From: Opitutaceae bacterium
GTDB taxonomy: Bacteria > Verrucomicrobiota > Verrucomicrobiia > Opitutales > Opitutaceae
Length of the DNA stretch: 64,000 bases
NCBI GenBank assembly: GCA_027482185.1
Contig: JAIXWF010000013.1
Location: forward strand, 248,001-312,000
Direction: 5' to 3'
In this document: in pieces, positions 3,602 through 56,750 of the stretch
Layout of the letters: each line of letters opens with the position of its first letter
How positions within the stretch are numbered: position 1 is the stretch's first letter
Notes under the pieces: generated by a model
The model's input: only the letters and a program-made list of their open reading frames with translations
Databases searched by the model: none
Told to the model about the DNA's origin: nothing
Made by a program: the position numbers and the translations under genes

Positions 3602-3695
3602 GGAATTGCGGAATGCGGATTGCGGGTTGCGGATTTTCAATCCGCCGGCCGCCGCGGTGCATTCCGCGATCCGCAATCCGCAATTCGCGATTGCC
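3602..3695. repeat. CGGATTGCGG-word hairpin element between ybaB and recR
   Basis: The whole 94-bp gap is an imperfect inverted repeat of degenerate words. The left arm (about 3604-3650) repeats GCGGATTGCGG-like units and the right arm (about 3659-3690) repeats CCGCAATCCGC-like units, so the transcript could fold into one long hairpin. It begins directly after the ybaB stop. It stays in frame with recR from an ATG at 3614, but the resulting peptide is low-complexity and unlike RecR. Confidence 0.75.
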
Positions 3696-4292
3696 ATGAC
3701 GCCCTCGTTCGAGCGGCTGCAGCAGCAGTTGAAACAACTGCCCGGGCTCGGCTTTCGTTCGGCCGAGCGCATTGCGTTGCACTTGCTCGTGGAGAAGCCG
3801 GCGCGTTTGCCGGAATTGGTGGCGGCGCTGCAGACGGCCGCGGCGTCGGTGCGGCGTTGTGCCCGCTGCGGCAACTTGGCGGAAGGGGAATGCTGCGGGA
3901 TCTGCGCGGACGAGCGCCGCGACCGCGCCTGCGTGTGCGTGGTGGAGCAGGTGCCGGATCTCGTGGCGATCGAGCGCAGCGCGGCCTTCCGCGGGACGTA
4001 CCATGTGCTGCACGGCAAACTTTCGCCGATCCACGGCGTGCGGCCGGAGGATCTGAACCTGGCGCCGTTGCTCGAACGCATCCGCGGCGGCGAGATCGCG
4101 GAATTGATTCTGGCGCTGCCCAACGACGTCGAGGGCGAGGCGACCTGCCACTATCTCACGGAGCACCTGCCCGCGGGCGGCGCCGTGAAAGTGTCGCGCA
4201 TCGGCTTCGGTCTGCCCAGCGGCGGCGGCGTGCTGTATGCCGACGCGGTGACGTTGAAGAGCGCGCTCGAGGGCCGGCGCGGCTACCGTTAA
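3696..4292 (+). CDS. recR: Recombination protein RecR
   Basis: 198 aa. RecR acts with RecF and RecO to load RecA on gapped DNA. The N-terminal helix-hairpin-helix region carries LKQLPGLGFRSAERIA, followed by a four-Cys zinc finger (CARCGN then CCGIC), and the Toprim domain has VVEQ and ALPNDVEGEATCHYL. The start MTPSFERLQQQL at 3696 matches the family N-terminus. An earlier in-frame start would translate the repeat element and is rejected. Confidence 0.95.
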   Translation: MTPSFERLQQQLKQLPGLGFRSAERIALHLLVEKPARLPELVAALQTAAASVRRCARCGNLAEGECCGICADERRDRACVCVVEQVPDLVAIERSAAFRGTYHVLHGKLSPIHGVRPEDLNLAPLLERIRGGEIAELILALPNDVEGEATCHYLTEHLPAGGAVKVSRIGFGLPSGGGVLYADAVTLKSALEGRRGYR

Positions 4293-4371
4293 GTAACCGG
4301 GCGGTGGCCGACCCGGAACGGATTTGCACTTGCGGGAGAACGGCGACGCGCCAGCATCCCGGGGTCCAAAT

Positions 4372-4446
4372 GCGGGCGTAGTATATCGGCTATTATGTGT
4401 GCTTCCCAAGCATGAGAGGCGGGTTCGATTCCCGCCGCCCGCACCA
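4372..4446 (+). tRNA. tRNA-Gly (anticodon CCC)
   Basis: 75 nt with encoded CCA. Acceptor arm GCGGGCG (4372-4378) pairs with CGCCCGC (4436-4442). The anticodon loop TTCCCAA gives CCC, reading GGG glycine. The T arm GCGGG-TTCGATT-CCCGC is perfect. The anticodon stem uses two G-U wobbles. Confidence 0.95.
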
Positions 4447-4470
4447 ATCCTAAGTCCCCCAAAAACACCA

Positions 4471-4701
4471 ATGAAGAAGTCCATCCAATCCCTCCTCGCC
4501 CTCGCCGTCCTCGCCTTCGCCGGCGCCGCTTTCGCCGCCGACAAGGCCGAGAGCAAGCCCGGCAAGTGCTGCGTGGCCGCCGCCAAAGACGGCAAGGCCT
4601 GCGCCCACGCCTGCTGCGTTGCCGCCAACAAAGAAGGCAACAACTGCACGAAGTGCGGCGGCGCCGGCAAGCTCGAGACCAAGGCCGCGGCCAAGAAGTA
4701 A
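4471..4701 (+). CDS. Small exported Cys-rich protein
   Basis: A 76-aa protein with a clear signal peptide (MKKSIQSLLALAVLAFAGAA, cleavage likely after AFA near residue 22). The mature part of about 54 residues is Lys/Ala-rich and has seven cysteines: CC at 33-34, C44, CC at 48-49, C59 and C62. The paired CC motifs could bind metal or form disulfides. I do not recognise a named family. The start is the ATG 25 bp after the tRNA; upstream in-frame codons run through the tRNA and are rejected. A rho-independent terminator follows. Confidence 0.72.
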   Translation: MKKSIQSLLALAVLAFAGAAFAADKAESKPGKCCVAAAKDGKACAHACCVAANKEGNNCTKCGGAGKLETKAAAKK

Positions 4702-4719
4702 GCGGCGGTTTTCCCTTCG

Positions 4720-4750
4720 AACCGCGCCCTTTGCGGGGCGCGGTTTTTTT
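4720..4750 (+). terminator. Rho-independent terminator after the Cys-rich gene
   Basis: Perfect 10-bp stem AACCGCGCCC / GGGCGCGGTT with a short loop followed by a T run at about 4744-4750. It closes the tRNA-Gly/Cys-rich unit and faces the convergent dxs gene. Confidence 0.85.
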
Positions 4751-4794
4751 GCGCCTGCGCGGCGCGGGGGGCGGGCGTGAGCGAGGATTGCCCG

Positions 4795-4880
4795 GATGGG
4801 AGGGATAGGACGGATGCGACGGATAGGACGGATGGGACCTAGATCATCCGTGGGGTGCCGTGAAATCCGTGGTTGGGAAT
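4795..4880. repeat. GGATGGGAC/ATCCGTGG word repeat in convergent gap
   Basis: About 45 bp of degenerate GGATAGGAC / GGATGCGAC / GGATGGGAC units, then two ATCCGTGG words at about 4846 and 4865. It lies between the small exported gene and dxs, which converge. The rest of the gap (4881-5002) shows no gene and no second repeat. Confidence 0.65.
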
Positions 4881-5002
4881 TCGGCTTCGGGAGGGCCAAG
4901 CCCCGCAGGGGCTGCCGATGGTTTACGGGGAGGCGCGATTCGCCGCGGCGGCCAAGCGGGGCAGGCGATCGCCGCGACCCAAGGCCGCGGCGGAATCCGG
5001 GA

Positions 5003-6940: not shown

Positions 6941-6964
6941 CGGGTACGGGGGGAGCGCGGACGC

Positions 6965-10808: not shown

Positions 10809-11324
10809 ATGACGTTTCGCCAACCCTTCTGGTCCCGCTTTCTGCCCACGGGGCTCGTCGTGGGCGTCGCGACGCTCGGTCCGCTGGGGCAACGGCTGCC
10901 GGCGCCGGGTACCTGGGGTTCGCTGGCGGGCCTGCTCGTTTTCGCGGTGTTTCTGCGCGACGCGAGCGCGGGGGCGATTTTGGTCGTCTCGGTGGTCGCC
11001 GCCTACGTCGCCGTCGGATTTTGCGGCGAAGCGGAGATCCGGCTCAAGGAGAAGGATCCCGGGAAGGTGGTCCTCGACGAAGTCGTCGTGATGCCGCTCT
11101 GCTTTCTCGGGTGGAAAACACTGCCGGCGCTGGCGCCGCCGTGGGTGGCGCTGCTCGCGGGCTTCGCGCTCTTCCGGCTCTTCGATATCCTGAAGCCCTT
11201 CGGCATCGCCCGGCTGCAGCATTTGCCCGGCGGCTGGGGCGTGGTGGCGGACGATTTCGCGGCGGCCTTGGCCGCCTGCGCGTGCTTGCACTCCGGATAC
11301 TGGCTGTGGGCGCGGTTCGGGTGA
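10809..11324 (+). CDS. pgpA: Phosphatidylglycerophosphatase A
   Basis: 171 aa. Dephosphorylates phosphatidylglycerophosphate to phosphatidylglycerol. Family signatures are APGTWGSL, VVLDEVVVMP, RLFDILKPF and GGWGVVADD, with four hydrophobic segments. It lies directly after pgsA. The stop codon is followed at once by the palindromic element at 11325. Confidence 0.95.
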   Translation: MTFRQPFWSRFLPTGLVVGVATLGPLGQRLPAPGTWGSLAGLLVFAVFLRDASAGAILVVSVVAAYVAVGFCGEAEIRLKEKDPGKVVLDEVVVMPLCFLGWKTLPALAPPWVALLAGFALFRLFDILKPFGIARLQHLPGGWGVVADDFAAALAACACLHSGYWLWARFG

Positions 11325-11450
11325 GGGGTGAGGAGTTGAGAGTTGAGGGCTGAGAGTTGAGAGATCGAGCCGCCGGCGCCGCTGCGGCGCGAAAATCTGA
11401 TGGTTTCGCTCTCAACGCTCAACTCTCAGCTCTCAACTGCAGCTCGCGCC
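11325..11450. repeat. GTTGAGAG-family palindromic element, copy 1
   Basis: Fills the whole convergent gap between the pgpA stop and the stop of the NusG-like gene. The left arm (about 11331-11365) is built of GAGTTGAGAGTTGAG words and the right arm (about 11408-11442) of CTCAACTCTCAGC words, enclosing a GC-rich inner hairpin and AAAATC. Read on the minus strand it matches the copies at 23341 and 56595 in layout: TGCAGTTGAGAG at the start, then a GAGAGC-AACC block, then CGATCTCTCAAC. Confidence 0.85.
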
Positions 11451-11942
11451 TCACGGCAGCGGCGCGAGTTGCTCGGCGGGCACGCGCACGTGCAGGCCGC
11501 GCTGCAGCACGTCGACGGAGACGACGATGCCCTGCGGGTCGGCGGGGTTGTCGACGAAGCCCTCGAGGCCGTGGAGGGCGCCGCCGAGGATCTTGACGCG
11601 GCGGCCGCGGCGCAGGAGCGGCATGACGCCGAGTTCGAGGCCGGAAGCGACGATGCGTTTCACGTCCTCCATCTGGCGGAGGAAATTCGGCACGTCCTCG
11701 ACCGGGATGGCGCGGGCGACGTTGTCCTGCTGGTAGATCCGCGGCTTCATTTCCGGGTCGACCTGGGCGAAGACGTAGCCCGGGAAGAGCGGTTTGGTGA
11801 AGCGCTTGGTGCCGTCGTGATAGCGCCGCACGCTGAGGATGAGCGGCAGGTAGTGCTCGATCCGCTCGGCCGCGAGGAGGGCGGCGAGTTTCTTTTCGCA
11901 GCGCGGGCGGGTGTGGCAGACGAACCAGGGGCGGTCGGCCAT
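11451..11942 (-). CDS. NusG-like transcription antitermination factor (RfaH/UpxY-like)
   Basis: 163 aa. The NusG N-terminal domain runs from WFVCHTRPRCEKK through PLFPGYVFAQ, and a C-terminal KOW motif occurs around RGRRVKILGGALHGLEGFV. It is shorter and more divergent than housekeeping NusG, resembling the RfaH/UpxY specialised paralogues that suppress termination in particular operons. Housekeeping nusG usually sits with secE-rplK, which are absent here, supporting a paralogue. It lies 4 bp after aroQ, so probably co-transcribed. Confidence 0.85.
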   Translation of the reverse strand: MADRPWFVCHTRPRCEKKLAALLAAERIEHYLPLILSVRRYHDGTKRFTKPLFPGYVFAQVDPEMKPRIYQQDNVARAIPVEDVPNFLRQMEDVKRIVASGLELGVMPLLRRGRRVKILGGALHGLEGFVDNPADPQGIVVSVDVLQRGLHVRVPAEQLAPLP

Positions 11943-12443: not shown

Positions 12444-12480
12444 CAGCTTTCAGCGGTCGGCGGTCAGCTTTCGGCTTTGG
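12444..12480. repeat. CAGCGGTCAGC word repeat after the Nif3-like gene
   Basis: Short tract CAGCTTTCAGCGGTCGGC then GGTCAGCTTTCGGCTTTGG, directly 3' of the stop of the minus-strand Nif3-like gene and before aroQ. Its words match the larger element at 29382-29459. The remaining bases to aroQ (12376-12443) show nothing clear. Confidence 0.5.
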
Positions 12481-13242
12481 TCAGAGGGGGTTGTCCGTGG
12501 CGATGAATTCCCAGGGCAGGCGGAACTTGCGGGCGAGCTCGGCGGCGAGGGCGCGGACGCCGTGGACCTCGGTCGCGTAATGCCCGCACAGGTACAGGTT
12601 GAGTTTTTCTTCCTGGGCGCGGTTGAACCACTCCTCGCGCAGCTCGCCGGTGACGAGCGTGTCGGCGCCGGCGGCCGCCAGTTCGGGAATCGCGCTGTTG
12701 CCCGAGCCGCTGCAGAAGGCGACGGCGCGCGGGTTGGCGGAGCCGTATTCGATCGCGATGACGCGGCCGTACTTCGCCTCGAGTCGGCGCCGAAGCGCGG
12801 CGCGCGGGGCGGCGTGGGCGGCAATCCAGCCGATGGGCGTGCCGTCGCGGACGAGGAAGGGCCGCGTCGGCTTCAGGCCGAGTTGGCGGGCGAGCAGGGC
12901 GTTGTTGCCGAGCTGCGGGTGGCCGTCGAGCGGCAGGTGGCTCGAGTAGAGCGCGCAGTTGCCGTGCACGAGGGTCGCGACGCGCGCGTAGGCCGGTCCG
13001 ACGAGGGGGCGCGGCATGTCCCAGTAGAGACCGTGGTGGACGATCAGGAAGTCGATGCCCGCGGCGACGGCTTGGCGAAAGGGGACGACGCCGGCGTCGA
13101 CCGCGGCGCCGATCTTGGTGACGTGGCCGTTGTTGCCGACCTGGAGGCCGTTCCAGGCGCCGGGGGCGTCCTTGTAGGCGGTGCGGCGCGTGCGGGTGTC
13201 GCAGTAGGCGACGAGGCGGTCGAGGGGGACGGACGTGGGCAT
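12481..13242 (-). CDS. Nif3-like dinuclear metal centre protein (YbgI/DUF34 family)
   Basis: 253 aa. Metal-ligand motifs of the Nif3 family occur in order: IVHHGLYWD, SSHLPLD and GHYATEVHG. Nif3/YbgI proteins bind two metal ions and are proposed GTP cyclohydrolase-like or metal-insertion proteins; function is unsettled. The start at 13242 (MPTSVPLDRLVAYCD) matches the family N-terminus; the frame stays open far upstream and that extension is not coding-like. Divergent from the dCMP deaminase gene. Confidence 0.9.
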   Translation of the reverse strand: MPTSVPLDRLVAYCDTRTRRTAYKDAPGAWNGLQVGNNGHVTKIGAAVDAGVVPFRQAVAAGIDFLIVHHGLYWDMPRPLVGPAYARVATLVHGNCALYSSHLPLDGHPQLGNNALLARQLGLKPTRPFLVRDGTPIGWIAAHAAPRAALRRRLEAKYGRVIAIEYGSANPRAVAFCSGSGNSAIPELAAAGADTLVTGELREEWFNRAQEEKLNLYLCGHYATEVHGVRALAAELARKFRLPWEFIATDNPL

Positions 13243-21567: not shown

Positions 21568-21739
21568 GGCGCCGAGTCACCGGCGGAAGCGCCGGGCAGT
21601 CGAGCCGTTTTGCAGGCGCGACAGGCGGATCGCGGCGCGCGGCCGGCGCCGTAGTTTTCCCTTGCCGTTGACTTTCGCTGCGCCCTAGTAACGTCCCTCC
21701 TGTCGGCTCCGGAGCGATTCCGGAAACGGCAGCCAGCAA

Positions 21740-21814
21740 GGCGCGGTAGCCAAGTGGTAAGGCCGAGGTCTGCAAAACCTCTATGCGCCGGTTCAATTCC
21801 GGCCCGCGCCTCCA
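21740..21814 (+). tRNA. tRNA-Cys (anticodon GCA)
   Basis: 75 nt with encoded CCA. Acceptor GGCGCGG (21740-21746) pairs with CCGCGCC (21804-21810). The anticodon loop CTGCAAA within the GAGGT/ACCTC stem gives GCA, reading UGC cysteine. The T loop is TTCAATT. It stands alone and marks the left edge of the catabolic island. Confidence 0.96.
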
Positions 21815-23340: not shown

Positions 23341-23502
23341 GGCTCAGCCGGAGTCATGCAGTTGAGAGAGCTTGGCTGAGAGTTGAGAGCGGAACCGTGC
23401 AGTTCGTCCGGTTGCCGGCTCCGGTTGCGATTTCTGTGGCTCGGCGGTTCGATCTCTCAACCCTCAACCCTCAACCCTCAACTCTCAACGGCTTGATTCC
23501 GC
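23341..23502. repeat. GTTGAGAG-family palindromic element, copy 2
   Basis: Ends directly at the stop codon of the sugar isomerase-like gene (stop at 23503-23505). The outer end GGCTCAGCCGGAGTCATGCA precedes GTTGAGAGAGCTTGGCTGAG. The other arm is four CTCAACCCTCAAC-type words and a degenerate inverted end. Much of the interior matches the reverse complement of copy 3 at 56595-56750. Bases 23305-23340 are a short leader of the downstream oxidoreductase. Confidence 0.88.
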
Positions 23503-24432
23503 TCAGAGCAAACCCTGGTAGGCGAGCCAGAGGCTGCGGAAGTATTTCATCACGCGGACGGGATCGGTGCTTTCGGGGATTTCGGCGAAGGCGAAGCCGG
23601 TGAACTTGATCTCGTTGAGGCGCGTGAAGAGCCGGCGGAACGGATAGTCTTCGAGATAAATGTCGCGGAGGTGCACGGTGAACATGCGGTGCTTCAGCAA
23701 ATCGAAGTTGGCATCGAAGCCGCCGTCCTCGAGGTCGGTCGGATTTGAATTCCAGCAAATGCCGACGTTGGGATGGTCGGCTACATCCATGATGCGGCGG
23801 CAACGCGGCCCGCGCGAGGTCTCGCTGCCGTGGACCTCGAGCCGGATCTGCTGGCCGAGGCCGGCGCCGAACTGGCCGACTTCGCGGAGCGAAAGCCCGA
23901 TTTGCTCGAGGGTTTTCTCCTCGGGCACGCCCTTGGGCAGGCCGTTGGGGCGGACCTTGACGCCGGTGGCGCCGACGTCGTGGGCGAGTTGGAGATAGGC
24001 CTTCGTCGCCTCGATGTCCTGGCGGAGCTTGGCTTGGTCGGGCGTGTGGTAGTCGTAGGCGCTGCCGAGCGAGGCGAGTTGCACGGGCGAATCGGCGAAG
24101 CGTTTCTTCACTTCGGCGCGTTCGGCTTTGCTCAGGGCAACTTCGACGCCGTGGCGGTGCGTGGTGCGCAGTTCGACGCCCTCGAATTTCGCTTCGGTGC
24201 AATTTTTGATGATCGTGGCGACGTCCCAGTCCTTGCCGAGATTGTAGGTCACCATGCCGAGCCGGTGGAGCGGTTTGCCGGTGACGAAGGACGGCGCGGG
24301 AGCGGCGGCCTTCTTCGCGGCCTTGGCGGGTGCGGATTCGGCGGCGCGGGCGGTGCCGGCAAGGCCGAGGGCGGCGAGTGCGCCGAGGCCGAGGGTGGAG
24401 TCGTGGAGGAAGCGGCGACGGGTGGTCGGCAT
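23503..24432 (-). CDS. Tat-exported sugar phosphate isomerase/epimerase (xylose isomerase-like TIM barrel)
   Basis: 309 aa. A Tat signal (RRRFLHD, then LGALAALGLAGTARA) is followed by an Ala/Lys-rich linker and an AP-endonuclease-2/xylose isomerase-like TIM barrel. Barrel landmarks are FEGVELRTTHRHG, GVKVRPNGLP, IRLEVHGS and NVGICWNSNPTD, which carry Glu, His and Asp ligands typical of metal-dependent members. Substrate unknown. The start MPTTRRRFL at 24432 places the twin Arg correctly; an upstream start is rejected. Probably co-functional with the adjacent Gfo/Idh enzyme. Confidence 0.88.
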   Translation of the reverse strand: MPTTRRRFLHDSTLGLGALAALGLAGTARAAESAPAKAAKKAAAPAPSFVTGKPLHRLGMVTYNLGKDWDVATIIKNCTEAKFEGVELRTTHRHGVEVALSKAERAEVKKRFADSPVQLASLGSAYDYHTPDQAKLRQDIEATKAYLQLAHDVGATGVKVRPNGLPKGVPEEKTLEQIGLSLREVGQFGAGLGQQIRLEVHGSETSRGPRCRRIMDVADHPNVGICWNSNPTDLEDGGFDANFDLLKHRMFTVHLRDIYLEDYPFRRLFTRLNEIKFTGFAFAEIPESTDPVRVMKYFRSLWLAYQGLL

Positions 24433-27977: not shown

Positions 27978-28031
27978 AATTCCGGTTTCACCATGCTCCG
28001 ATCTCTCAATTTCCCGCTTTTCCGATCTCCC
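27978..28031. repeat. Pyrimidine-rich TTTCC/CGATCTC tract before sulfatase 2
   Basis: Words such as CCGATCTCTCAATTTCCCGC and TTTTCCGATCTCCC run right up to the ATG of sulfatase 2. The same kind of tract precedes the genes starting at 29541 and 37640, always pyrimidine-rich on the coding strand. Confidence 0.5.
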
Positions 28032-29375
28032 ATGCGAATTCCGTTTTTCCAATTTCTGGCTGCGGTCTTGGTGGCGGCGGCGTTGCCGGCGGTGCGGGCG
28101 GCCGACGCGCCGCGGCCGAACATCATCTTCATTTTGGCGGACGACCTTGGGCCCGGCGACCTTGGTTGCTACGGCGGCACCCAGGTGCCAACGCCGCGGC
28201 TCGACCGGATGGCCGCGGAGGGCACGCGGTTCATGCAGTACTATGCCGCCGCGCCGATCTGTTCGCCGTCGCGCGCGGGGCTGATCACGGGCCGCCAGCC
28301 GGCGCGCGCGAACCTCAGCAGTTTCCTCCAGACGAAGAAGGGCAACGCGGCCTGCGAGCAGGTGGACTTCCTCGATCCGGCGGCGCCGTCGCTGCCGCGG
28401 CTGCTGCGCGCCGCGGGCTATGCCACGGCGCATTTCGGCAAATGGCATTTGGGCGGCGGCCGCGATGTCACCGAGGCCCCGAAGTTCGCGGCCTACGGCT
28501 ACGACGAACACGCCGGTACCTATGAGAGCCCGGAGCCGCACCCCGACATCACGGCCACGCCGTGGATCTGGTCGATGCAGGACAAGGTGAAACGCTGGGA
28601 ACGCACGGCGTTCTTTATCGACCGCACGCTGGATTTTCTCGACCGCCACCGCGACCGGCCGGCCTTCGTCAATCTCTGGCTCGACGACGTACATACACCG
28701 TGGGTGCCGGACGAAGTGTCCGACCGCAAAGACCTGCCGAAGAACTTCCGGCCCGTGATGGCCGAGACGGACCGGCAGATCGGCCGGCTGCTCGACGAGC
28801 TGCGTCGCCGCAAACTCGATACGAACACCCTCGTGATCTTCACCAGCGACAACGGCGCGCTGCCGACCTTCGACGGGTCGCGTTCCGCCGGCTTGCGCGG
28901 GAGCAAACTCACGCTCTACGAGGGCGGGATCCGCATGCCGTTCATCGCGCATTGGCCGGGCCGCGTGCCGGCGGGGCGCGTCGACGAGACCTCCGTGCTC
29001 ACGGCGTGGGACGTGTTGCCCACGCTCGCGGCGCTGGGCGGGGCGGCGTTGCCGGCGGGGACGGTGTTCGACGGGGCGGACGTGGGGGCGGTGCTGCGGG
29101 GTGCGGCGGCGCCGGTGCGGCCGCCGTTGTTTTGGGAGTACGGGCGGAACACCACCGCCTTCAAGTATCCCGCCGCCGGCCGCAGTCCGAACCTCGCGAT
29201 GCGCAACGGCCCGTGGAAGCTGCTCGTCTATGCCGACGGCTCCGGCGCGGAGCTCTACGACGTCGTCGCCGACCGCGCCGAAAGCCGCAACCTGGCCGCG
29301 GCGGAACCGGAGCGCGTGCGGGCGATGACCGAAGCCGTGTTGGCTTGGCGCGCGACGTGGTCGAGGAAGCCATGA
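28032..29375 (+). CDS. Exported sulfatase, Cys-type (sulfatase 2)
   Basis: 447 aa. Signal peptide MRIPFFQFLAAVLVAAALPA. NIIFILADDLG with Asp pair at 37-38, CSPSR with the modifiable Cys77, HFGKWHLGGG, FTSDNGALP and YEGGIRMPF are all present. This matches S1-family arylsulfatase A-like enzymes. The start at 28032 is preferred to 27975 because the upstream codons are the pyrimidine-rich tract. Its stop codon is followed at once by a hairpin element. Confidence 0.92.
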   Translation: MRIPFFQFLAAVLVAAALPAVRAADAPRPNIIFILADDLGPGDLGCYGGTQVPTPRLDRMAAEGTRFMQYYAAAPICSPSRAGLITGRQPARANLSSFLQTKKGNAACEQVDFLDPAAPSLPRLLRAAGYATAHFGKWHLGGGRDVTEAPKFAAYGYDEHAGTYESPEPHPDITATPWIWSMQDKVKRWERTAFFIDRTLDFLDRHRDRPAFVNLWLDDVHTPWVPDEVSDRKDLPKNFRPVMAETDRQIGRLLDELRRRKLDTNTLVIFTSDNGALPTFDGSRSAGLRGSKLTLYEGGIRMPFIAHWPGRVPAGRVDETSVLTAWDVLPTLAALGGAALPAGTVFDGADVGAVLRGAAAPVRPPLFWEYGRNTTAFKYPAAGRSPNLAMRNGPWKLLVYADGSGAELYDVVADRAESRNLAAAEPERVRAMTEAVLAWRATWSRKP

Positions 29376-29381
29376 AGAGCT

Positions 29382-29459
29382 CACAGCGGTCAGCGGTCAG
29401 CAGTCAGCCTCGAGCAGATCGCCCAATGCTGATAGCTGAGCGCTGACAGCTGAACACTG
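29382..29459. repeat. CAGCGGTCAGC / GCTGACAGCTGA hairpin element
   Basis: The left arm (29382-29409) repeats GGTCAGC words and the right arm (29428-29459) repeats GCTGA/GCTGACAGCTGAAC words, giving a long imperfect hairpin with a short interior loop. It starts seven bases after the sulfatase 2 stop. Confidence 0.7.
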
Positions 29460-29481
29460 CGTCCCTCACCGATTGCCCGGA

Positions 29482-29537
29482 GTGAATCCCGTTTTCCCAA
29501 TCCCGTGCTTCCAATCCCGATTTTCCAATCCCTTCTA
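29482..29537. repeat. 14-bp-period AATCCCG(N7) repeat before sulfatase 3
   Basis: AATCCCG is followed by TTTTCCC, TGCTTCC and ATTTTCC in successive units, then a final AATCCC, giving four words at a regular 14-bp spacing that end just before the ATG at 29541. A tidier version of the pyrimidine-rich tracts at 27978 and 37641. Confidence 0.65.
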
Positions 29538-34676: not shown

Positions 34677-34864
34677 GGGTGGAAATGGGGAGGAGACACG
34701 GAGGGCACGGAGGGAGGGCAGGAGGTCACGGAGGCGCGGCGAGTTGATCGCGAGCCGGGGGCGGATTCCGTGACGAATCCCGTGGAAGCAATTGGTGCGG
34801 AGGAATCGGCTCGGTGAACTCCGTGCCTCCTCCGTGTCCTCTGTGACTCGGCCTCTTGTTCGGC
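34677..34864. repeat. CACGGAG-word hairpin element, copy 1
   Basis: Fills the convergent gap between the protease and dehydrogenase stops. The left arm (about 34689-34737) repeats CACGGAGG words and the right arm (about 34815-34853) repeats CCTCCGTG words. The interior has GATTCCGTGACGAATCCCGT. The minus-strand end GTCACAGAGGACACGGAGGA also opens the element at 43825. Confidence 0.82.
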
Positions 34865-35908: not shown

Positions 35909-35978
35909 GGCGGATACTGACGGAAGGGAACCACTGATGGACACTGATGGGCACTGATGAGCGGGAATGGGGGCGGAA
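35909..35978. repeat. ACTGATGG-word element between ribulokinase and dehydrogenase
   Basis: Three tandem words near ACTGATGGACACTGATGGGC at about 35931-35958, preceded by a diverged GATACTGACGG at 35911. Directly 3' of the ribulokinase stop on the minus strand. Similar word strings are familiar from intergenic DNA in related phyla. Confidence 0.7.
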
Positions 35979-37640: not shown

Positions 37641-37760
37641 GGGGAAAGGCGGAAGGCGAAAGGCGGAAATCGGAAAAGCGGAAAATTGGAAAACGGGAAA
37701 AGCGGGAAAAGCGGGAGTGCTGAAAGCTGAAGGCTGAACGCTAAAGGCCGAATGCTGAAG
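37641..37760. repeat. Composite repeat upstream of araB: GCTGAA words plus TTTTCC tract
   Basis: Bases 37715-37760 hold degenerate GCTGAAAGC/GCTGAAGGC/GCTGAACGC words. Bases 37641-37712 hold GGAAAAGCGG-type words that read as TTTTCCCGC repeats on the minus strand and run up to the araB start. The same order (CTGA words, then TTTTCC tract, then ATG) occurs at 29382-29540. Confidence 0.6.
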
Positions 37761-37777
37761 GCGCGGGGGCGGGGCGG

Positions 37778-41385: not shown

Positions 41386-42446
41386 GCGGGGCGATGCGCG
41401 TACGTGGGACAAAACGAGCGCCCGGACGGAGCCGGCGTTGGGGATGGGGAATCGTTTTGTGCTGGCTGGGGGCGGCGATCGCCGCGGCGCAGGAACGGTT
41501 GGAACTCGTGTGGCCGACGCCGAGCCGCGCGTGGGCCGAAGGCAAACCCGCGACGGAGTGGCTGCAGCACGCGGGCTCGGGCGATCCGCAGTCGGGGGCG
41601 TTCGGCGGCGTGCGCAGCGGCGGGTCGCAGTTCCACGAAGGCATCGACATCCGGCCCGTGGGACGCGACCGCAAAGGGGCGCCGACGGATCCCGTTTTCG
41701 CGGTGCTGCCCGGCGTCGTGCGGCATGTGGCCGGCGCGCCGTCGGGCGGCTACGGTCGCTACGTGGTGCTGGAGCATCCGGGTGTGACGCCGGCGGTGTA
41801 TTCGCTTTACGCGCACCTGGCCTCGATCGCGCCGGGGCTGCGGCCGGGCCAAACGGTCGCCGCCGGGGCGACGCTCGGTCTCATGGGGCACAGCGCGGGC
41901 GGCTACCGGATCCCGCCGGACCGGGCCCATCTCCATTTCGAAATCGGCGTGATGGTGACGCGCGATTTCCAATCCTGGTACGAGCGGAAGAAATTCGGCA
42001 GCCGCAACGAGCAGGGCGTGTGGAACGGGATGAATTTGCTCGGGCTCGACCCGCAGGCGCTGTTCGAGGATTGGCGGGCGCGGCGGATCACGACGCTGCA
42101 GGACGTATTTGCGCGGCAGGAGACCGTGGTGCGCCTGCGGCTTGCCACGACGCGGACGCCGGACTTCGTGACGCGCTATCCCTCGCTGCTGACGAAGCCG
42201 TTGCCGCTCGGGCCGGTGTCCGGCTGGGAAATCCGCTTCAACTGGACGGGCCTGCCCTTCGCGTGGACGCCGTTGACGGGACTTGAAACCATCGGGCTCG
42301 CGGCCGGCGTGCCGCGGATCGTGGAGGTCAACGCCGAGGTCGAGCGCCGCCAGCGCAGCAAGAGCCTCGCCGTGCAGCGCGGCGGGGAATGGACCGTCGG
42401 GCGCGACCTCGAGCCGGTGCTGCAGCTGCTGTTCGGCCTGCGTTGA
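41382..42446 (+). CDS. Exported M23 family (LytM-type) metallopeptidase
   Basis: 354 aa. Signal peptide followed by an M23 domain with HEGIDI (His85, Asp89) and HLHFE (His183, His185), the zinc ligands and catalytic His of LytM-type glycyl endopeptidases or carboxypeptidases acting on peptidoglycan. The C-terminal 150 residues form a beta-rich extension of unknown function. Last gene of the coupled operon; its stop is followed by the partial repeat at 42451. Confidence 0.88.
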   Translation: MSGAMRVRGTKRAPGRSRRWGWGIVLCWLGAAIAAAQERLELVWPTPSRAWAEGKPATEWLQHAGSGDPQSGAFGGVRSGGSQFHEGIDIRPVGRDRKGAPTDPVFAVLPGVVRHVAGAPSGGYGRYVVLEHPGVTPAVYSLYAHLASIAPGLRPGQTVAAGATLGLMGHSAGGYRIPPDRAHLHFEIGVMVTRDFQSWYERKKFGSRNEQGVWNGMNLLGLDPQALFEDWRARRITTLQDVFARQETVVRLRLATTRTPDFVTRYPSLLTKPLPLGPVSGWEIRFNWTGLPFAWTPLTGLETIGLAAGVPRIVEVNAEVERRQRSKSLAVQRGGEWTVGRDLEPVLQLLFGLR

Positions 42447-42450
42447 GCGA

Positions 42451-42575
42451 GCAGGAGAAGCTGAGAGCCGAGGGTTGAGGGTCGAGGGCGAGAAATCGAT
42501 CCGAGCCCGGAAATGGTGTGTCCCTCGCTCGGATCCGGGGCGATCTTTTGGGCGAATCCACATTTTGGATTCGCC
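42451..42575. repeat. Partial GTTGAGAG-type element plus two hairpins
   Basis: CTGAGAGCCGAGGGTTGAGG at 42461-42480 resembles the GTTGAGAG family but only one arm is present. GATCCGAGC (42498-42506) pairs with GCTCGGATC (42527-42535), and GGCGAATCC (42551-42559) pairs with GGATTCGCC (42567-42575). The second hairpin lies just before the fusion gene and might act in its leader. Confidence 0.55.
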
Positions 42576-43824: not shown

Positions 43825-43970
43825 GTCACAGAGGACGCGGAGGAGGAAGCGGAGCTCACGGAGCAGCCGTTGGAAATTCGAAGGTTCGCCGGACGAATTG
43901 GACCGGCGGGTGAATCCCGTGGCCGCAGCCGATTCACGCCATCCGCTGCGGCCGAGTGCGACGTCGGGAT
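43825..43970. repeat. CACGGAG-word element, copy 2
   Basis: GTCACAGAGGACGCGGAGGA at 43825-43844 then GCGGAGCTCACGGAG words, and an interior GTGAATCCCGTGG, matching the element at 34677-34864 in the opposite orientation. Only one arm is well preserved. Lies 3' of the copper-protein stop in a convergent gap; 43763-43824 shows nothing specific. Confidence 0.72.
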
Positions 43971-47563: not shown

Positions 47564-48028
47564 TCAGCCCCGGCGCGGGCAGGCGCCCGTCTCGCGGAAG
47601 CGGTTGCACTGCGCGCTGACCTGCAGGCGCTGGTTGACGGGCGTGAGCCCCAGTTTCGAGGAAACGGTGCTGCCGTACCACGTCATGAACGGCGCGCTGA
47701 TCTCGAAGATCTTGTCGCAATCCACGCAGACGACCTGGGCGATCTGGGTGCCGTCGCCCTCGCGGTTGGGGCGGTAGAATTTTTCCCCGGAGCCGATGTC
47801 GACCTCGCGGAGCAGGGCGCTCTCGGTCATGATCGGCAGCGTGCGGTAGACGGTGGCGCGCGAGACGGAGTCGTCGATCGCGCGGGCGAAATCGAGCAGC
47901 TGTTCCGCCGTGAAATGCTCGGGCTGGGCGAAGGCGGCGTCGAAGATCGCGAGCCGCTGGTTGGTCGCGCGCAGGCCCTTCCGGGTCAGGAAGCCTCGGA
48001 ATTTTTCGCGGGCGGCGGAGATACTCAC
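47564..48028 (-). CDS. Fur family transcriptional regulator, atypical metal site
   Basis: 154 aa from a GTG start at 48028; no ATG fits the family N-terminus [17 protein letters not shown]. The winged helix has RLAIFDAAF and [13 protein letters not shown]101-x2-C104 and C141/C150 could form the structural zinc site. The His-rich stretch usually before the first CxxC is missing ([12 protein letters not shown]), so the sensing site differs from Fur, Zur or PerR. Divergent from priA. Confidence 0.85.
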
Positions 48029-48139
48029 GTGGGACTGTTTTCCGCGGCCGCCGGGGGTGTCAAGGGGCCCGTGCGCCGCGCCCGGCGCGGACGCACGCGG
48101 GGATTGCGGCGCGGGCCGCGGCGCCCGCACACTGCGGCG

Positions 48140-50377
48140 ATGATCGTCGGAGTCCATCCGCTTGCCGGGTTCGACAAGGTGCTGCACTACCGCGTGCCGG
48201 AGCACCTGCGCGAAACCGTGGGCGTCGGGTCGCTGGTGCGCGTGCCGATCGGCCCCGGCCTGAAGCTCGGCATCGTGGGCAGCGAAGGCCCGCCGGCCGA
48301 TTTCCCGGTGGAGCGGCTTAAGGCGGTGGTGCAGGTCGTGTATCCGTTCCCGGCTTTGCCGCCCGACCTGCTCGCGTTGGCGCGCTGGATGGCGGCCTAC
48401 TATGCGTGCGGGCTGGACACGGTGATCGAGACGATGATCCCGGCGCCGGTGCGCCGCGGCGCCGCGCTCAAGCAGGAGAAACAGCTCGTGCTCGCGCAGC
48501 GCCTCGCGCCGGAAGAATTGGCGCAGCTGGAAAAGCGCGCGCCGGCGCAGGCGAAACTCTACCGGCTGCTCGAGCAGCAGATCCGGCCGTTGCCCAAGGC
48601 GCTGGTGCTGGCGCGGCTGAAGGTCACGGCGGCGGTCGCGGCCGGGCTCGTGAAACGCGGCACGATCCGCGAGGAATCGCAGCGCATCGAGCGCATCGCC
48701 TACGCCGACGACCGCGACGCGGGCGAGCTGGTGGCGGCGCAGCCGCACCGGCTCAACCCCGAGCAGCAGGCCGCCGTGGACGACCTGTCCGCGCGGCTGG
48801 GGGAAAACAAATTCGGCGTCACGCTCCTGCTCGGCGTCACCGGCTCCGGCAAGACCGAGGTCTACCTGCGCGCGATCGCGACGGCGCTGGCGGCGGGCGG
48901 CGGCATCGCGTTGCTCGTGCCCGAGGTGGCCCTGACGCCGCAGACCGTGGCGCGCCTGCGTTCGCGGCTCGAGGCGATCGCGCCGGGGCTGCGCTGCGTC
49001 GTCTGGCACAGCCATCTCAGCGAAGGCGAGCGGCTCGACGGCTGGCTGGCGCTGGCGACGGGCGAGGCGCGCGTCGTCGTCGGGGCGCGGTCGGCGATCT
49101 TCGCCCCGGTGCGGGATCTGAAACTGGTGATCGTGGACGAGGAACACGAGCCGGCCTACAAACAGGACGAGACGCCGCGGTACCACGGCCGCGACGTCGC
49201 GGTGATGCGCGCGAAACTCGCGGGGGCGGTCTGCCTGCTCGGGTCGGCGACGCCGTCGCTCGAAAGTTTCACCAACGTGGAGGCGGGCAAGTACCGCCTC
49301 TTGCAGCTGACGCAGCGCGTCGACGCGCGGCAGCTGCCGTTCATCGACGTGGTCGACATGCGGATCGAGGCGATGAAGCAGCGGACGTTGCCGGCGCTGT
49401 CGGGCCGGCTGGTGCGGGCGATGCAGGACCGTTTCGCGAAGCGCGAGCAGACGATTTTGTTCATCAACCGCCGCGGCTATTCCTCGTCGATGCTCTGCAC
49501 ATCGTGCGGGCACACGGAAGAGTGCGTCCATTGCAGCATCACGATGACGTACCATCGGTCGGACGAGATGCTGCGCTGCCACCTTTGCGGGGCGGAGCGG
49601 CCCGCGCCGGCGCGATGCCCGAAGTGCGCGGCGCCGGACATCCGCTGGCGCGGACTCGGCACGCAGCGCGTGGAGGAGGCGGTGCGGCGCGTCGTGCCGC
49701 GCGCGCGCATCGAGCGCATGGATACGGACACGATGGCGAAGAAGAACCGTTTCCGCGAGGTGCTGGCGGATTTCCGTTCCGGCAAGATCGACGTGCTGGT
49801 CGGCACGCAGATGATCGGCAAGGGGCTGGATTTCCCGAACGTCACCCTGGTCGGCCTGGTCGACGCCGACATCTCGATGCACATTCCCGATTTCCGGGCG
49901 AACGAGCGCACGTTCCAGCTGCTGGTGCAGGTCGCGGGCCGGGCGGGGCGCGGCGACCGCGCGGGCGAGGTGATCGTGCAGACGTTCACGCCGCAGGCGG
50001 AGGCGATCCAATTTTCGCGGCACGCGGATTTCGCGGGGTTCGCGGCGTCGGAACTGAAGCTGCGGCGCGATTTCAAATACCCGCCGTACCGGCATCTCAT
50101 CCACCATCTGTTCCGCGGGCCCAATCCCGAGAAACTGAAGTTCTTTGCCGAGCAGTGGGCGCGGCTGGTCGAGAAGACGTTCGGCGACCGCGTCGAACTC
50201 CGCGGGCCGGCGGCGTCGCCGATCGAGAAAATCAAAGACGAGTACCGCTGGCAGCTGTGGTACTTCACGAACGGCGTGACGAAGGTCGTGCCGGAGCTGG
50301 CGCGGCTGCGGGCGGAGTTCGCCTGGCCGGACGACCTGACGCAGGTGATCGACGTGGATCCGGTAAACCTGAGCTGA
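48140..50377 (+). CDS. priA: Primosomal protein N' (replication restart helicase PriA)
   Basis: 745 aa. Walker [14 protein letters not shown]-like [15 protein letters not shown] and the helicase motif [15 protein letters not shown] mark the superfamily 2 motor. Eight cysteines of the PriA zinc region span [13 protein letters not shown] to CPKC. The N-terminal DNA-binding domain starts [20 protein letters not shown], fixing the start at 48140. PriA reloads the replisome at stalled forks. Confidence 0.96.
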
Positions 50378-53502: not shown

Positions 53503-53510
53503 GGCGACGC

Positions 53511-54767
53511 TCAGCTGCGGGAGGGCGGGGCGGCGGGCTTGGCCTTGGGCCCGGCGACGGGCACGCCGCCCGGATCGGCGGGGCGGGCCTTGTTCGAGCG
53601 GGATTTGACCGCGGCGGGCGCGGCGGCGGCGACCGGCAACTCGCCCTCGAATTCGAGCGGGCGGCTGCGGGCGACGTCGTCGCCGACCTTCAGGCCGGAG
53701 ACGATCTGGATGTAGCGGGTGTCGGCGATGCCGATCTCGACCTCGTGGACCGCGAAGGTTTCGCCCTTCTTGATGAAGACGTAGCGGGCGGATTCGGCGG
53801 TGGAGAAGACGGCGTTGAGCGGCACGGCGGGCGCATCCTCGACGCGGGCGAGGGTGAACATGACGGTGGCGGACATGCCGGGGCGGAGGCGCTCGTCGGG
53901 TTCCTCGAGAATCACGTCGACGGGAAACACGCGGGTGCGGTCGACGGTGCTTTCGAGGGCGCTGGTGGCGATGCGCTTGACGGTGCCGGCGATCAGGACA
54001 CTGCGCATCGAATCGACGCGGACGCGGGCGACATCGCCCATCTTCATGCGGGCGACGTCGATCTCGTTGATGTTGGTGCGGACCATCAGCTGGCTGAGAT
54101 CGGCGACCTCGCCGAGCATCGTGCCGCCGTTCTGCGCCGCGGCGCCGGTGATGACCTGGCCCTCGGTGAGGTCCTTGAGGAGGAGGGTGCCGTCGTGGGG
54201 GGCGCGGATCACGGTCTTCGCGAGCTTGTCGCGGAGGTTCGCGGCGCGGGCTTCGGCGATGGCGGCGTCGTTTTCGGCGAGCGAAAAGGTGATGCGGGAG
54301 TCCTCGAAGTCCTTGAGCGTGACGACGCCGCGTTTCTGCAATTCGAGCTGGCGCTCGTGGTCGCGGCGGGCGCGCTGGGCGCGGAGCTTGGCGGCCTCGA
54401 TGCTGCGCTCGATCTCGGTGATCTGGGTGAGGAGGTCCTGCTGGTCGAGGCGGAGGATCTCGTCGTTGCGTTTCAGCTTCTGGCCGTCGACGGCGAGGAT
54501 CTTGACGATGCGGCCGTTGATCTCGGAACGAAGTTCGGTGGAAAACACGGCGCGCAGGCGGCCGACGGCGACGATTTCCTCGGCGATCGTGGCGGTGCGG
54601 ACCTTGGTGGTCGCGACCTTTTCGACCCGTTTGGCGCCAAAGAGGCCGGGGCTGATCTGGACCCAGAGCTTGTAGCCGCCCCAGCCGAGGCCGCCGAGCA
54701 GGACGAGGGTGACGATGGTACGCAGGAGCGGCTTGGGCCGGCGGGCAGCAGGGGCGGACGGGGGCAT
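53511..54767 (-). CDS. MacA-like periplasmic adaptor (HlyD/RND membrane fusion family)
   Basis: 418 aa. N-terminal anchor (IVTLVLLGGLGWGGYKLWV), a lipoyl-like hairpin split by a coiled coil (IERSIEAAKLRAQRARRDHE) and beta-barrel segments ending GLKVGDDVARSRPLEFEGE, with an Ala/Pro/Lys tail. It links the inner-membrane permease to an outer-membrane channel. The start at 54767 is preferred to 54806. First gene of the two-gene unit; the partner ATPase and channel are elsewhere. Confidence 0.9.
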   Translation of the reverse strand: MPPSAPAARRPKPLLRTIVTLVLLGGLGWGGYKLWVQISPGLFGAKRVEKVATTKVRTATIAEEIVAVGRLRAVFSTELRSEINGRIVKILAVDGQKLKRNDEILRLDQQDLLTQITEIERSIEAAKLRAQRARRDHERQLELQKRGVVTLKDFEDSRITFSLAENDAAIAEARAANLRDKLAKTVIRAPHDGTLLLKDLTEGQVITGAAAQNGGTMLGEVADLSQLMVRTNINEIDVARMKMGDVARVRVDSMRSVLIAGTVKRIATSALESTVDRTRVFPVDVILEEPDERLRPGMSATVMFTLARVEDAPAVPLNAVFSTAESARYVFIKKGETFAVHEVEIGIADTRYIQIVSGLKVGDDVARSRPLEFEGELPVAAAAPAAVKSRSNKARPADPGGVPVAGPKAKPAAPPSRS

Positions 54768-54941
54768 GGAAGAGGGGTAGACGAACCGGACCTGTTTTGG
54801 AAACACCCCGGCCGGCCGAGGTGCGAGCAGAAAAACCGGCGCCGATAGTCACTATTCGGTTACCATCGCGGCGGGCGCCGCCGATGCCGCATTCCGCGCT
54901 CGCCGCGCGGGCGGCGGTTCCCACGATCCGTCCCGCGACGA

Positions 54942-56396
54942 ATGAAGATCTATTTCATGGGGATTTGCGGAACGGCGATGGGCAATGCGGCGTTGCTGGC
55001 GCGGGCCGCGGGCCACGAGGTGCTCGGGGCCGACAGCGGCGTCTACCCGCCCATGAGCACGGTGCTGGCCGACGCCGGCATCGCCCTGCACGAGGGTTAC
55101 GATGCCGCGCGGTTGCAGCGCCTCGCGCCGGAACTGGTCGTGATCGGCAACGCGATGTCGCGCGGCAACCCCGAGGTCGAGTGGCTGCTCGAGACGCGCG
55201 CGATCGCGTTCACGTCGCTGCCGGCCCTCTTGCACGATTTCGTTCTCGGGCGGAGGCGCAACCTTGTGGTCTGCGGCACGCACGGCAAGACGACCACGAC
55301 TTCGCTGGCGGCCTATTTGCTCCGCGAGGCCGGCCGCGATCCCGGTTTCCTCATCGGCGGCGTGCCGCAGGATCCGCCGGTCGGCGCGCACCTCGGGACC
55401 GCGACGGATCCGTTCGTGATCGAGGGCGACGAGTACGACAGCGCATTCTTCGACAAGCGGAGCAAGTTCATCCACTACGCGCCGCACTTCGCGGTGCTGA
55501 ACAACCTCGAGTTCGACCACGCCGACATCTTCCGCGACCTCGCGGACGTGCAGCGGACCTTCAGCCATCTGGTGCGCATCGTGCCGCGGCACGGGGCGGT
55601 GATCCTGAACGGCGACGACGCCAATCTGCCGGCGCTCGGCGCGATGGCCTGGACGCGCACGGTGCGCGTGGGTCTGGGGGAAAACTGCGACACCTGCATC
55701 GTCGATTTCTCCGAGGATGCGGCCGGCGCGTCGTTCCGGTTGACTTGGCGCGGCCAGCCCTGGGGCGAAGTGCGCTGGAGCCAACCCGGTATCTTCAACG
55801 CGCGGAATGCCGCGATGGCGGCGACCGCGGCGGGTTTGGCCCTGCAACCGGCGACGGCGTCCCTTGATCCGACGCTGCTCGACCCGCGGACGCTGGCGCT
55901 CGGCGCCCTGGCCAAGTTTCGCGGCGTGAAGCGGCGGCAGGAAACGCTGCTGCATACGCCGGCGCTGACGGTGATCGAGGATTTCGGCCACCATCCGACC
56001 GCGTTGGCGGAAACGCTGCAGTCGTTCCGCGCCCGTTTCCCGGGCGCGCTGCTGACGGCGGTTTTCGAACCGCGCAGCAACACGGCGCGGACCCGCGCGA
56101 TGCAGGCCGGCTTCATGCGCGCGTTGGCCCTGGCCGACGAAGTTTACCTCGGGCCCGTGAACCGCCCGGAGAAATTGAAACCGGAGGAACGCTTCGATCC
56201 CGAGGCCGTGGTGCAGCACCTCGGCACGCAGGGCGTCGAGGCGTATTGCGCTCCGACCAACGCGGCGCTCTGCGACAAACTGCAGGGCAACACGCTCGGC
56301 GCGGGCAAGGTGGCGCGGGCGCGCGTCGTCGCCTTTTTCACCAACGGCAGCTTCGACGGCATCATCGGCCGTTACGTGGCGGCGGCGAAAGCGTGA
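54942..56396 (+). CDS. mpl: UDP-N-acetylmuramate:L-alanyl-gamma-D-glutamyl-meso-DAP ligase
   Basis: 484 aa. Mpl recycles murein tripeptide onto UDP-MurNAc. The N-terminal Rossmann motif is MGICGTAMGNAALL, the Mur ligase P-loop is VCGTHGKTTTTS, VIEGDEYDSAFFD is the Mpl-specific segment, and the C-terminal part has VIEDFGHHPTAL. Meso-DAP type peptidoglycan is implied. Convergent with sulfatase 4. Confidence 0.96.
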   Translation: MKIYFMGICGTAMGNAALLARAAGHEVLGADSGVYPPMSTVLADAGIALHEGYDAARLQRLAPELVVIGNAMSRGNPEVEWLLETRAIAFTSLPALLHDFVLGRRRNLVVCGTHGKTTTTSLAAYLLREAGRDPGFLIGGVPQDPPVGAHLGTATDPFVIEGDEYDSAFFDKRSKFIHYAPHFAVLNNLEFDHADIFRDLADVQRTFSHLVRIVPRHGAVILNGDDANLPALGAMAWTRTVRVGLGENCDTCIVDFSEDAAGASFRLTWRGQPWGEVRWSQPGIFNARNAAMAATAAGLALQPATASLDPTLLDPRTLALGALAKFRGVKRRQETLLHTPALTVIEDFGHHPTALAETLQSFRARFPGALLTAVFEPRSNTARTRAMQAGFMRALALADEVYLGPVNRPEKLKPEERFDPEAVVQHLGTQGVEAYCAPTNAALCDKLQGNTLGAGKVARARVVAFFTNGSFDGIIGRYVAAAKA

Positions 56397-56594
56397 GGTG
56401 AACGCGCGGTTCGGGTCGGGGAATAAGTCGACCCGGGGACAGGATGGACCGGAATCCCGGCGACGGGATTGGCAGGACGAAAGAGGGGGCGCGAGGCGAC
56501 GGCGGAATTGCCGCGGCGGAAATTGCCGGAACGGAATTCTCCCGACGACCTCGGCGCGGGCGCCCGGTCTCCGGTGCGTCCCACCGCGCGATCC
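56397..56594. other. Gap after mpl without recognised content
   Basis: About 200 bp of GC-rich sequence with local repeats of GGCGGAATTGCCG-type words at about 56508-56536. No ORF is supportable. The palindromic element follows. Confidence 0.4.
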
Positions 56595-56750
56595 GACTCG
56601 GCTGGAATCATGCAGTTGAGAGATGGAAGGCGAGGGTTGAGAGATCTATCCGCCGAGCCACGGAAGAGGTCGCCGCAGCCGGCAGCCTGACGGACCGAAC
56701 GGTTTGGCTCTCAATTCTCAGCCAAGCTCTCTCAACTGCATGAGTTCGGC
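56595..56750. repeat. GTTGAGAG-family palindromic element, copy 3
   Basis: Both outer ends carry the same motif inverted: CGGCTGGAATCATGCAGTTG at 56599-56618 and its counterpart ending CAACTGCATGAGTTCGGCTC. Inside are GAGAG and CTCTC words and an AACCG/CCGAACGG block. The reverse complement aligns along most of its length with copy 2. It abuts the stop of sulfatase 4 (56751-56753). Confidence 0.88.

Follow-up and report, generated by a model that had tools for sequence, protein, structure and literature searches.

We analyzed the short word repeats in a 64,000-nucleotide stretch of an Opitutaceae bacterium (GenBank assembly GCA_027482185.1, contig JAIXWF010000013.1; G000:C3:248001-312000 in our numbering), hereafter the window, which belongs to a genome of 6.43 Mb in 24 contigs. 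An initial annotation made from the letters alone had listed twelve sites at which arrays of degenerate words occupy the gaps between genes, and had placed them in convergent or tandem gaps only. We called genes with a purpose-written script seeded on codon-position G+C, which is the source of every start and stop codon cited here; its calls closely match the earlier gap coordinates and place five of the twelve sites in convergent and seven in tandem gaps. The elements are as follows.

3602..3692, no strand: hairpin of ATTGCGG words filling the gap between ybaB (stop codon 3599-3601) and recR (ATG at 3696), detected by the lag-7 test, the inverted-repeat test and RNA folding (3599-3698, z -5.7)
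4793..4874, no strand: GGATGGGA(C) and GGATAGGAC words (period 9/18), then ATCCGTG words, in a convergent gap downstream of a canonical terminator
11322..11453, no strand: TTGAGAG-word hairpin between two stop codons, in a convergent gap (fold of 11322-11453, z -6.3)
12444..12480, no strand: CAGCGGT and CAGCTTT words adjoining the stop codon of the minus-strand gene 12481-13242
23343..23506, minus strand: copy of the sub-family A1, which resembles a miniature inverted-repeat transposable element (MITE), with CTCAG at both ends; the called stop codon of the minus-strand gene, at 23503, falls within the right CTCAG
29384..29454, no strand: hairpin of CAGCGGT and CTGATAG words after the stop codon at 29375 (fold of 29376-29460, z -3.7)
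29485..29532, plus strand: AATCCCGTTTTTCC array (7/14 bp) directly upstream of the next start codon
34682..34861, no strand: inverted repeat of CACGGAGG words (period 8-9) in a convergent gap (fold of 34677-34826 not significant, z -1.05)
35928..35959, minus strand: CACTGATGGA array (period 10), a single arm in a tandem gap
37643..37762, minus strand: GGAAAAGC and GCTGAAG arrays in a tandem gap
42459..42492, plus strand: TTGAGGG-type words forming one arm only, behind the stop codon at 42446, with no hairpin signal (fold of 42447-42540, z +0.19)
43825..43865, plus strand: CACGGAG words in a convergent gap, outside the enriched vocabulary described below
56597..56754, plus strand: MITE-like A1 copy with TTGAGAG-word arms (fold of 56595-56744, z -5.8), its left end CTCGG and its right end CTCAG (56750-56754), which holds the called stop codon of the minus-strand gene 56751-58574

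The analysis was extended to a genome sample consisting of the window and 80 stretches of 20 kb, together 1.664 Mb or about one quarter of the genome, in which 1,244 genes were called; counts below refer to this sample unless stated otherwise. A vocabulary was built from ten-mers common to at least four gaps and at least 12-fold over Markov expectation. The gaps yielded 551 such ten-mers and Markov-simulated gaps 10 (14 control ten-mers in a rerun). This vocabulary detects 11 of the sites in the initial annotation; the twelfth, at 43825, was found by a tandem-repeat scan and gap-to-gap BLAST alone. It also matches two tandem gaps of the window that were absent from the initial annotation, at 21694-21738 and 27979-28009. 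An Rfam scan of the window at the gathering score matched only two tRNAs (4372-4443 and 21740-21811) and none of the elements.

The elements are built on a period of seven. A test that makes no use of the vocabulary, scoring 20-nt windows with at least 16 self-matches at shift p, peaks at p = 7, 14 and 21, with minor peaks at 8/16 and 9/18; periods 8, 9 and 10 are those of the window sites at 4795, 34677 and 35909. Lag-7 windows number 13.8 per 1000 in tandem gaps, 27.0 in convergent gaps and 0.3 in both divergent gaps and the first 300 genes, with a mean of at most 0.03 in shuffles. Period-7 arrays of at least four units number 197 (2 in shuffles), mostly with 4 to 5.5 units. The estimate of at least seven word families was fair or low: 204 strong period-7 arrays reduce to 57 canonical heptamer consensus units, a number that includes many variants of a single word. 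TTGAGAG and TTGAAAG are the commonest words, and TGAGAGTTGA is present in 42 gaps of the window's genome.

Many of the elements are hairpins, as first suggested. We found a strong inverted repeat in 78 of 188 element gaps of 40-330 nt and in 5 of 150 controls (the first 150 tandem or convergent gaps without an element), a few of the 78 being plain palindromes without words; the remaining element gaps hold single arms or weaker inverted repeats. Four window sites fold strongly, and two divergent gaps gave z of +0.25 and +0.57. The arm has a median of 36 nt and the loop of 40 nt, and the outer end of the hairpin lies a median of 9 nt from the adjacent stop codon, with 61 of 118 ends within 10 nt. 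Arms are polar, the purine- or G-rich array coming first and its complement second (RY). When gaps are scored for purines, the simple RY order appears in 27 tandem and 28 convergent ones and the simple YR order in none; adjacent arms with a family label, a count that excludes 183 covered runs without one, comprise 45 RY, 4 YR and 10 same-orientation pairs. Both arms belong to the same word family in 36 of the 45 RY pairs; 2000 shuffles gave 21 such pairs on average and never more than 32.

In the window alone, avoidance of divergent gaps is not significant. With gaps drawn by length, the probability of no divergent gap among twelve is 0.065, so the original inference was right but under-powered. 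Eight of the nine gaps it named as divergent are divergent and free of elements; the ninth, 48029-48139, is no gap in the independent call, where the genes 47564-48157 (minus strand) and 48140-50377 (plus strand) overlap. Counting by gap class across the sample shows that the avoidance is real, with divergent gaps far below expectation. Among gaps of at least 20 nt, word elements occur in 136/545 tandem, 94/156 convergent and 8/182 divergent gaps (136, 93 and 6 in a rerun on gap sequence only). Counted singly, there are 185, 140 and 10 elements in the three classes; uniform placing predicts 176, 56 and 103, and placing with 80 nt per start codon barred predicts 166, 91 and 78. Restricting the count to gaps of at least 80 nt leaves an element in 6/171 divergent gaps versus 208/472 others (Fisher p = 4e-27).

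This position bias is more than an avoidance of promoters. Once all positions closer than 100 nt to a start codon are set aside, words cover 14.6% of tandem-gap sequence up to 100 nt from the stop codon (19,802 positions), 11.0% between 100 and 200 nt and 4.6% farther out, and 0.8% of divergent-gap sequence (16,977 positions). Coverage thus tracks distance from the stop codon. The earlier suggestion of an insertion bias toward 3' ends, and not a random spread, is borne out, for A1 to the base; the position bias is in part an insertion bias, clearest in that sub-family. Stop codons as a general target can be rejected, since TGA is not enriched before elements (119/156 versus 341/440). TAG stops are over-represented where the element lies within 20 nt of the stop codon (29/156 versus 34/440, p 0.0004), and some words contain TAG or TAA and may themselves supply the stop. 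Growth of the arrays in 7-nt phase from the stop TGA is unsupported, with offset counts of 15, 8, 10, 2, 11, 21 and 3.

The A1 sub-family was found by gap-against-gap BLAST. Its full-length copies include the loop. Besides the window copy there are 23 loci, each 110 nt or longer and 68-91% identical, giving 13 convergent and 9 tandem placements, 2 outside called gaps and none in a divergent gap. Genome-wide, the A1 terminal pattern (at most one mismatch) has 76 sites versus 1 for the reversed control, and facing terminal pairs lie 114-128 nt apart, start to start. Among the 23 scorable copies, CTNAG stands at 16 left and 16 right ends; the background is 6.8% at random points in tandem and convergent gaps and 26% at points 9 nt from stop codons. 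The middle base is the same at both ends in 13 of 18 readable pairs (permutation p 0.015) and differs in 5. The TNA is the called stop codon at one end in 20/23 copies, versus 208/462 CTNAG sites in gaps (p 4e-5).

A1 looks like a MITE, being a short repeat with terminal inverted repeats in many copies. It resembles bacterial MITEs in its size of about 150 nt, its inverted ends and its copy number, and we have moderate confidence that a 3-bp TNA within CTNAG is its target-site duplication, a target that we take to be of the IS5/IS1031 type. A1 differs from the MITEs compared in that its TNA is so often a stop codon and that no parent element was found for it. The arrangement fits a MITE whose TNA duplication would regenerate the stop codon. 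Among the matches listed for 27 members of the genus, with 14 candidates scored in each, A1-length matches occur in the window's genome and in the relative G288, which has 41 A1-like stretches, with one weak match in G295 and none in the other members listed. The window's genome has one match to PF01797 (Y1 transposase, RAYT/IS200 type), at C20:427781-428107 (L081).

We followed the words between species at the ybaB-recR gap, using the best 80 RecR matches, mostly Opitutaceae, Opitutus, Opitutae or Opitutia of the Verrucomicrobiota, the closest being Opitutia bacterium Tous-C1TDCM (NEUS01000006.1); DXS served as synteny query for relatives. The gap was readable in all but one of the 80 relatives plus the window. 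The 33 gaps shorter than 45 nt were left out of the hairpin test, and 24 of the other 47 hold a hairpin at z >= 3, 19 of these also with period 7 at z >= 2.5. Their words include GATTTTC, TGATGGA, GGATTGC, TTGARRG, AATTGGG, GTAAGAA, TTCAGGG, TTTCGGG and GGGAGAT, among others, so that different words occupy one orthologous gap. Words assigned by eye to an 81-row tree of YbaB and RecR require 32 changes. The minimum is 14 and the mean of shuffled labels 38, and as low a number arose in 0/200 shuffles, which indicates some inheritance of words too. Sister pairs with different words occur at SH-aLRT (Shimodaira-Hasegawa-like approximate likelihood ratio test) support of 96-98, for example L176/L185, L217/L234 and L204/L206. 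In 21 word hairpins chosen at z >= 3 and period-7 z >= 2, the stem starts a median of 2 nt past the ybaB stop codon and ends a median of 5 nt before the recR start codon.

Turnover is also seen at other sites. Four element gaps were compared with a close relative: three keep the same word with the heptamers rearranged and the loop changed, and the fourth carries other sequence. In the close relative the word at 4793..4874 is unchanged, and 11322..11453 retains its word pattern with an altered loop; the gap at 12444..12480 carries other sequence or words in relatives. A further orthologous tandem gap holds GGTAAGC words in the window's genome (L057:11663-11810), GTAGCGA words in G181 (L125:17477-17597) and TTGAGAG words in G099 (L115:12540-12587), these being three genera.

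Samples of 200-400 kb from each of four relatives (G010, G099, G181 and G088) show a weaker word enrichment than the window's genome, with 221, 133, 59 and 145 enriched words against 94, 71, 14 and 93 in controls. Lag-7 windows per 1000 in tandem, convergent and divergent gaps are 1.0, 5.9 and 0.0 in G010, 0.6, 0.8 and 0.0 in G099, 2.1, 0.6 and 0.3 in G181, and 0.9, 0.0 and 0.0 in G088, at or near zero in the divergent gaps of all four. Element-bearing gaps in the same order are 20/136, 12/33 and 6/37 in G010, 24/140, 8/33 and 6/41 in G099, 4/63, 6/16 and 0/20 in G181, and 22/64, 1/4 and 2/4 in G088. The class rule is clear in G181, weak in G010 and G099, and unseen in G088 with its 4 divergent gaps. 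Pooled over the loci of the 80 relatives, lag-7 windows number 1.4 per 1000 in tandem and 0.6 in both convergent and divergent gaps, which does not repeat the convergent excess; as gene calls cover just 75% of those loci, their gap classes were dropped as evidence. The small samples of other genomes thus show the class bias weakly or not at all, and the rule is strong solely in the window's genome.

The words themselves have a patchy distribution. Among 288 genomes of the phylum, 58 carry a three-unit TTGARRG-type word, as do 17 of 27 of the genus. This word has 226 matches in the window's genome, 200, 176 and 104 in three congeners, and 0 in 10 of the 27, G010 included. G010 (L082-L101) has other dispersed repeats, around GTAAGAGAAAGAGG and GTATCTGGACATTATCC.

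The closest published case that we found is the heptamer repeats of Xanthomonas (GGGAATC) and Nostoc (GGGGA(C/T)T), which prefer about four units. According to excerpts of Rehm et al. 2015 (PMC4692102), their G-rich strand is the sense strand in the 50 bp that follow stop codons and the antisense strand in the 50 bp that precede start codons, they are under-represented between divergent open reading frames, and two Xanthomonas genomes have 70 and 75 inverted pairs. The same excerpts report that 83% of the Xcc repeats lie at the same place in Xac, that each genome has one G-tract word and that most Xanthomonas repeats are transcribed; the authors make a case for G-quadruplexes and were unable to name a function. 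As far as the excerpts describe them, these repeats share with the present elements the period of 7, the unit number, the non-coding position, strand polarity, depletion in divergent gaps and inverted pairs. The elements here differ in having many words per genome, mostly without G-tracts, that are exchanged between relatives at one gap, and in including one sub-family with transposon-like ends on stop codons. The remark in the initial annotation that no function had been named thus still holds, but a one-word case of the same kind was already published.

We read the elements as mobile or templated DNA hairpins tied to gene 3' ends, akin to the Xanthomonas GGGAATC repeats (PMC4692102).

On balance we lean, with some reserve, toward an account in which repeats made of DNA hairpins invade gene 3' boundaries and in time disappear or give way to hairpins with different words. 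It draws on the gap classes and the short distances to stop codons, the A1 copies and their ends, the patchy distribution of the words and their turnover at ybaB-recR, and, among the pairing tests described below, the absence of an RNA-strand signature and of any advantage of native over swapped arms. Such a hairpin would consist of inverted arms of mostly 4 to 5.5 degenerate heptamers around a loop of about 40 nt. For A1, a TNA-type transposase acting in trans, presumably IS5/IS1031-like, may insert the element at a CTGAG that spans the stop codon. Duplication of the TGA would keep the gene intact, which would directly explain the 3'-end position of A1. The other words may spread by a copying process, mobile or templated, and would survive where neither coding sequence nor promoters suffer.

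Several observations weigh against this account. Neither an autonomous element nor a cognate transposase was found for A1, and among its 76 terminal sites (at most one mismatch) there are 0 facing pairs at insertion-sequence spacing, a criterion that more diverged partners could escape. Two convergent A1 copies have stop codons at both ends, which simple duplication does not give; since A1 copies share descent, their CTNAG ends may be partly inherited sequence, and the A1 end could supply the stop codon instead of targeting it. In G288 the site corresponding to 56597-56754 is not empty, as a half-A1-like arm adjoins the same stop codon there. Among word elements only A1 had full-length copies with a common loop; non-A1 alignments run mostly through the words, with a median match of 34 nt in gap-to-gap BLAST, in which 238 gap pairs align over at least 60 nt at 72% identity or more, and CTNAG is not enriched at the ends of non-A1 hairpins (17/142). 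At ybaB-recR the median spacer left over by the hairpins is 10 nt, as compared with 28 nt for the 33 short gaps (p 0.0007), a difference that would not be expected if hairpins were simply inserted into a spacer. The avoidance of divergent gaps is only weak in the small G010 and G099 samples. The agreement of arms at the family level, finally, also fits selection for pairing.

The strongest alternative is that the elements are functional RNA hairpins at 3' ends, acting as bidirectional terminators or stabilizers of mRNA 3' ends, in which the words are free to change while the stem forms. The placement directly 3' of stop codons, most commonly between convergent genes, would be expected of them, as would the strong folds, the matched arm families and the retention of a hairpin under different words at ybaB-recR, although that gap presumably lies within one operon. 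Stems kept for RNA should favor G.U over A.C mismatches on the transcribed strand. We observed no excess on the sense strand, with 73 G.U versus 63 A.C in 44 tandem hairpins and 28 versus 23 in 26 ybaB-recR hairpins; in 50 convergent hairpins, where no bias is expected, the counts are 76 and 57. Nor is pairing any stronger between native arms than after an exchange of arms inside the family (-35.2 versus -35.0 kcal/mol, 26 pairs, p 0.43; p 0.57 for 5 pairs of another family).

Terminator counts give a mixed answer. A detector of intrinsic terminators, defined by a G+C hairpin followed by a U-tract, does not identify the elements as such: in gaps of 60-200 nt it finds a canonical terminator at 14/186 element-bearing ends versus 68/272 ends without an element. 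Element and terminator do occur together in some gaps, for the most part in longer ones. After correction for free length, the exclusion is not significant overall (odds ratio 0.71, p 0.097): terminators are rarer with an element at 45-180 nt of free length (30/231 versus 60/256, p 0.003), and the effect is absent at 180-260 nt (23/69 versus 34/99). The window has a canonical intrinsic terminator (GC hairpin and T-run) at 4716-4751, immediately 5' of the GGATGGGA words, and the close relative has retained it. In Xanthomonas, RNA sequencing found transcripts to start or stop more often at heptamer repeats able to form G-quadruplexes than at control repeats (excerpts of PMC4692102). Our own tests of an RNA role are weak and partly conflicting. 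Without a G.U excess, an RNA role is unsupported, as is the earlier suggestion of attenuators or 3'-end hairpins in that functional sense, and we consider this alternative unlikely.

Less probable still is a purely mutational origin, in which slippage linked to replication or transcription, together with template switching at hairpins, makes arrays and inverted copies locally. The dominance of period 7 would follow, heptamers are said to be over-represented among bacterial simple sequence repeats with slippage proposed as the cause (cited within excerpts of PMC4692102), and outside A1 the common sequence is mostly of word length. One genome nevertheless has the same words in dozens of its gaps and a congener lacks them, a pattern suggestive of copying from site to site, and the arm-matched variants predicted by template switching were not seen. 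We hold it very improbable that a DNA-binding protein recognizes the elements as paired sites, the proposal made for Geobacter metallireducens, where paired tandem octa- or heptanucleotide sites on opposite strands at variable distance, in tens of copies, were called global-regulator sites (excerpts of PMC2700814); the many unrelated words per genome, exchanged at one gap, would need as many proteins. G-quadruplexes are the least credible option, for although position, polarity and the preference for about four units agree with the excerpts of PMC4692102, TTGAGAG, TTGAAAG and the relatives' TTTTCGA and GTAAGAA have no G-tracts and such words refute it by their sequence.

Beyond the invading hairpins that we favor for this genome, we tentatively raise a broader possibility, which we would not yet bet on. 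Hairpins of about 4-5 degenerate 7-bp words may form a general, unnamed class that homes to the stop-codon boundary, often fills the gap to the next start or stop codon, spreads as a genome vocabulary and has its words exchanged for others from one related species to the next. A1 would then represent a single mobile form that can be seen, and the Xanthomonas G-quadruplex repeats and Geobacter sites would be members misread through single words. The excerpts of PMC2700814 mention no stop-codon association for the Geobacter sites, unlike the elements here. The TAACTGA heptamers of Beggiatoaceae, by the excerpts of PMC4679880, lie in gaps mostly upstream of start codons and differ from our elements in being direct repeats with one indirect repeat. 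Our searches of open-access papers listed no description of a multi-word heptamer class or of stop-codon MITEs. If the class is real, it would bring the scattered odd heptamer repeats under a single testable heading, with its own anatomy, rule of position and turnover; the novelty would lie in a process, by copying or synthesis, through which short words are written and replaced at gene 3' ends. It would also weaken the published interpretation as G-quadruplexes, since words without G-tracts share position, polarity and a similar unit number. By inserting at a stop codon and restoring it through target duplication, a transposon would lead a harmless life in compact genomes, and A1-like insertion would offer a route for rewriting 3' ends and intercistronic gaps.

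Repetitive extragenic palindromic (REP) elements are located downstream of genes and are not known from divergent promoter gaps. The word elements resemble REPs, bacterial interspersed mosaic elements (BIMEs) and REP doublets forming hairpins (REPINs), which are linked to REP-associated tyrosine transposases (RAYTs), as dispersed palindromes outside genes; they differ in that their arms are arrays of degenerate heptamers. With their longer arms and loops, they are also not the imperfect palindromes of 20-40 nt tagged by GTAG or CGTC that define REPs and REPINs. Among 70 hairpins inspected by eye for these tags, at least two are plain GTAG palindromes, TAGCGGG words contain GTAG, and the other word families have none. 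Two separate palindromes of the GTAG type also occur in the genome. GTAGGGGCGCG lies in 6 tandem, 8 convergent and 4 divergent gaps, with no clear avoidance of the latter, and GTAGCCCGGGC lies in 6 tandem gaps, 1 convergent gap and 0 divergent gaps, with 2 copies outside gaps.

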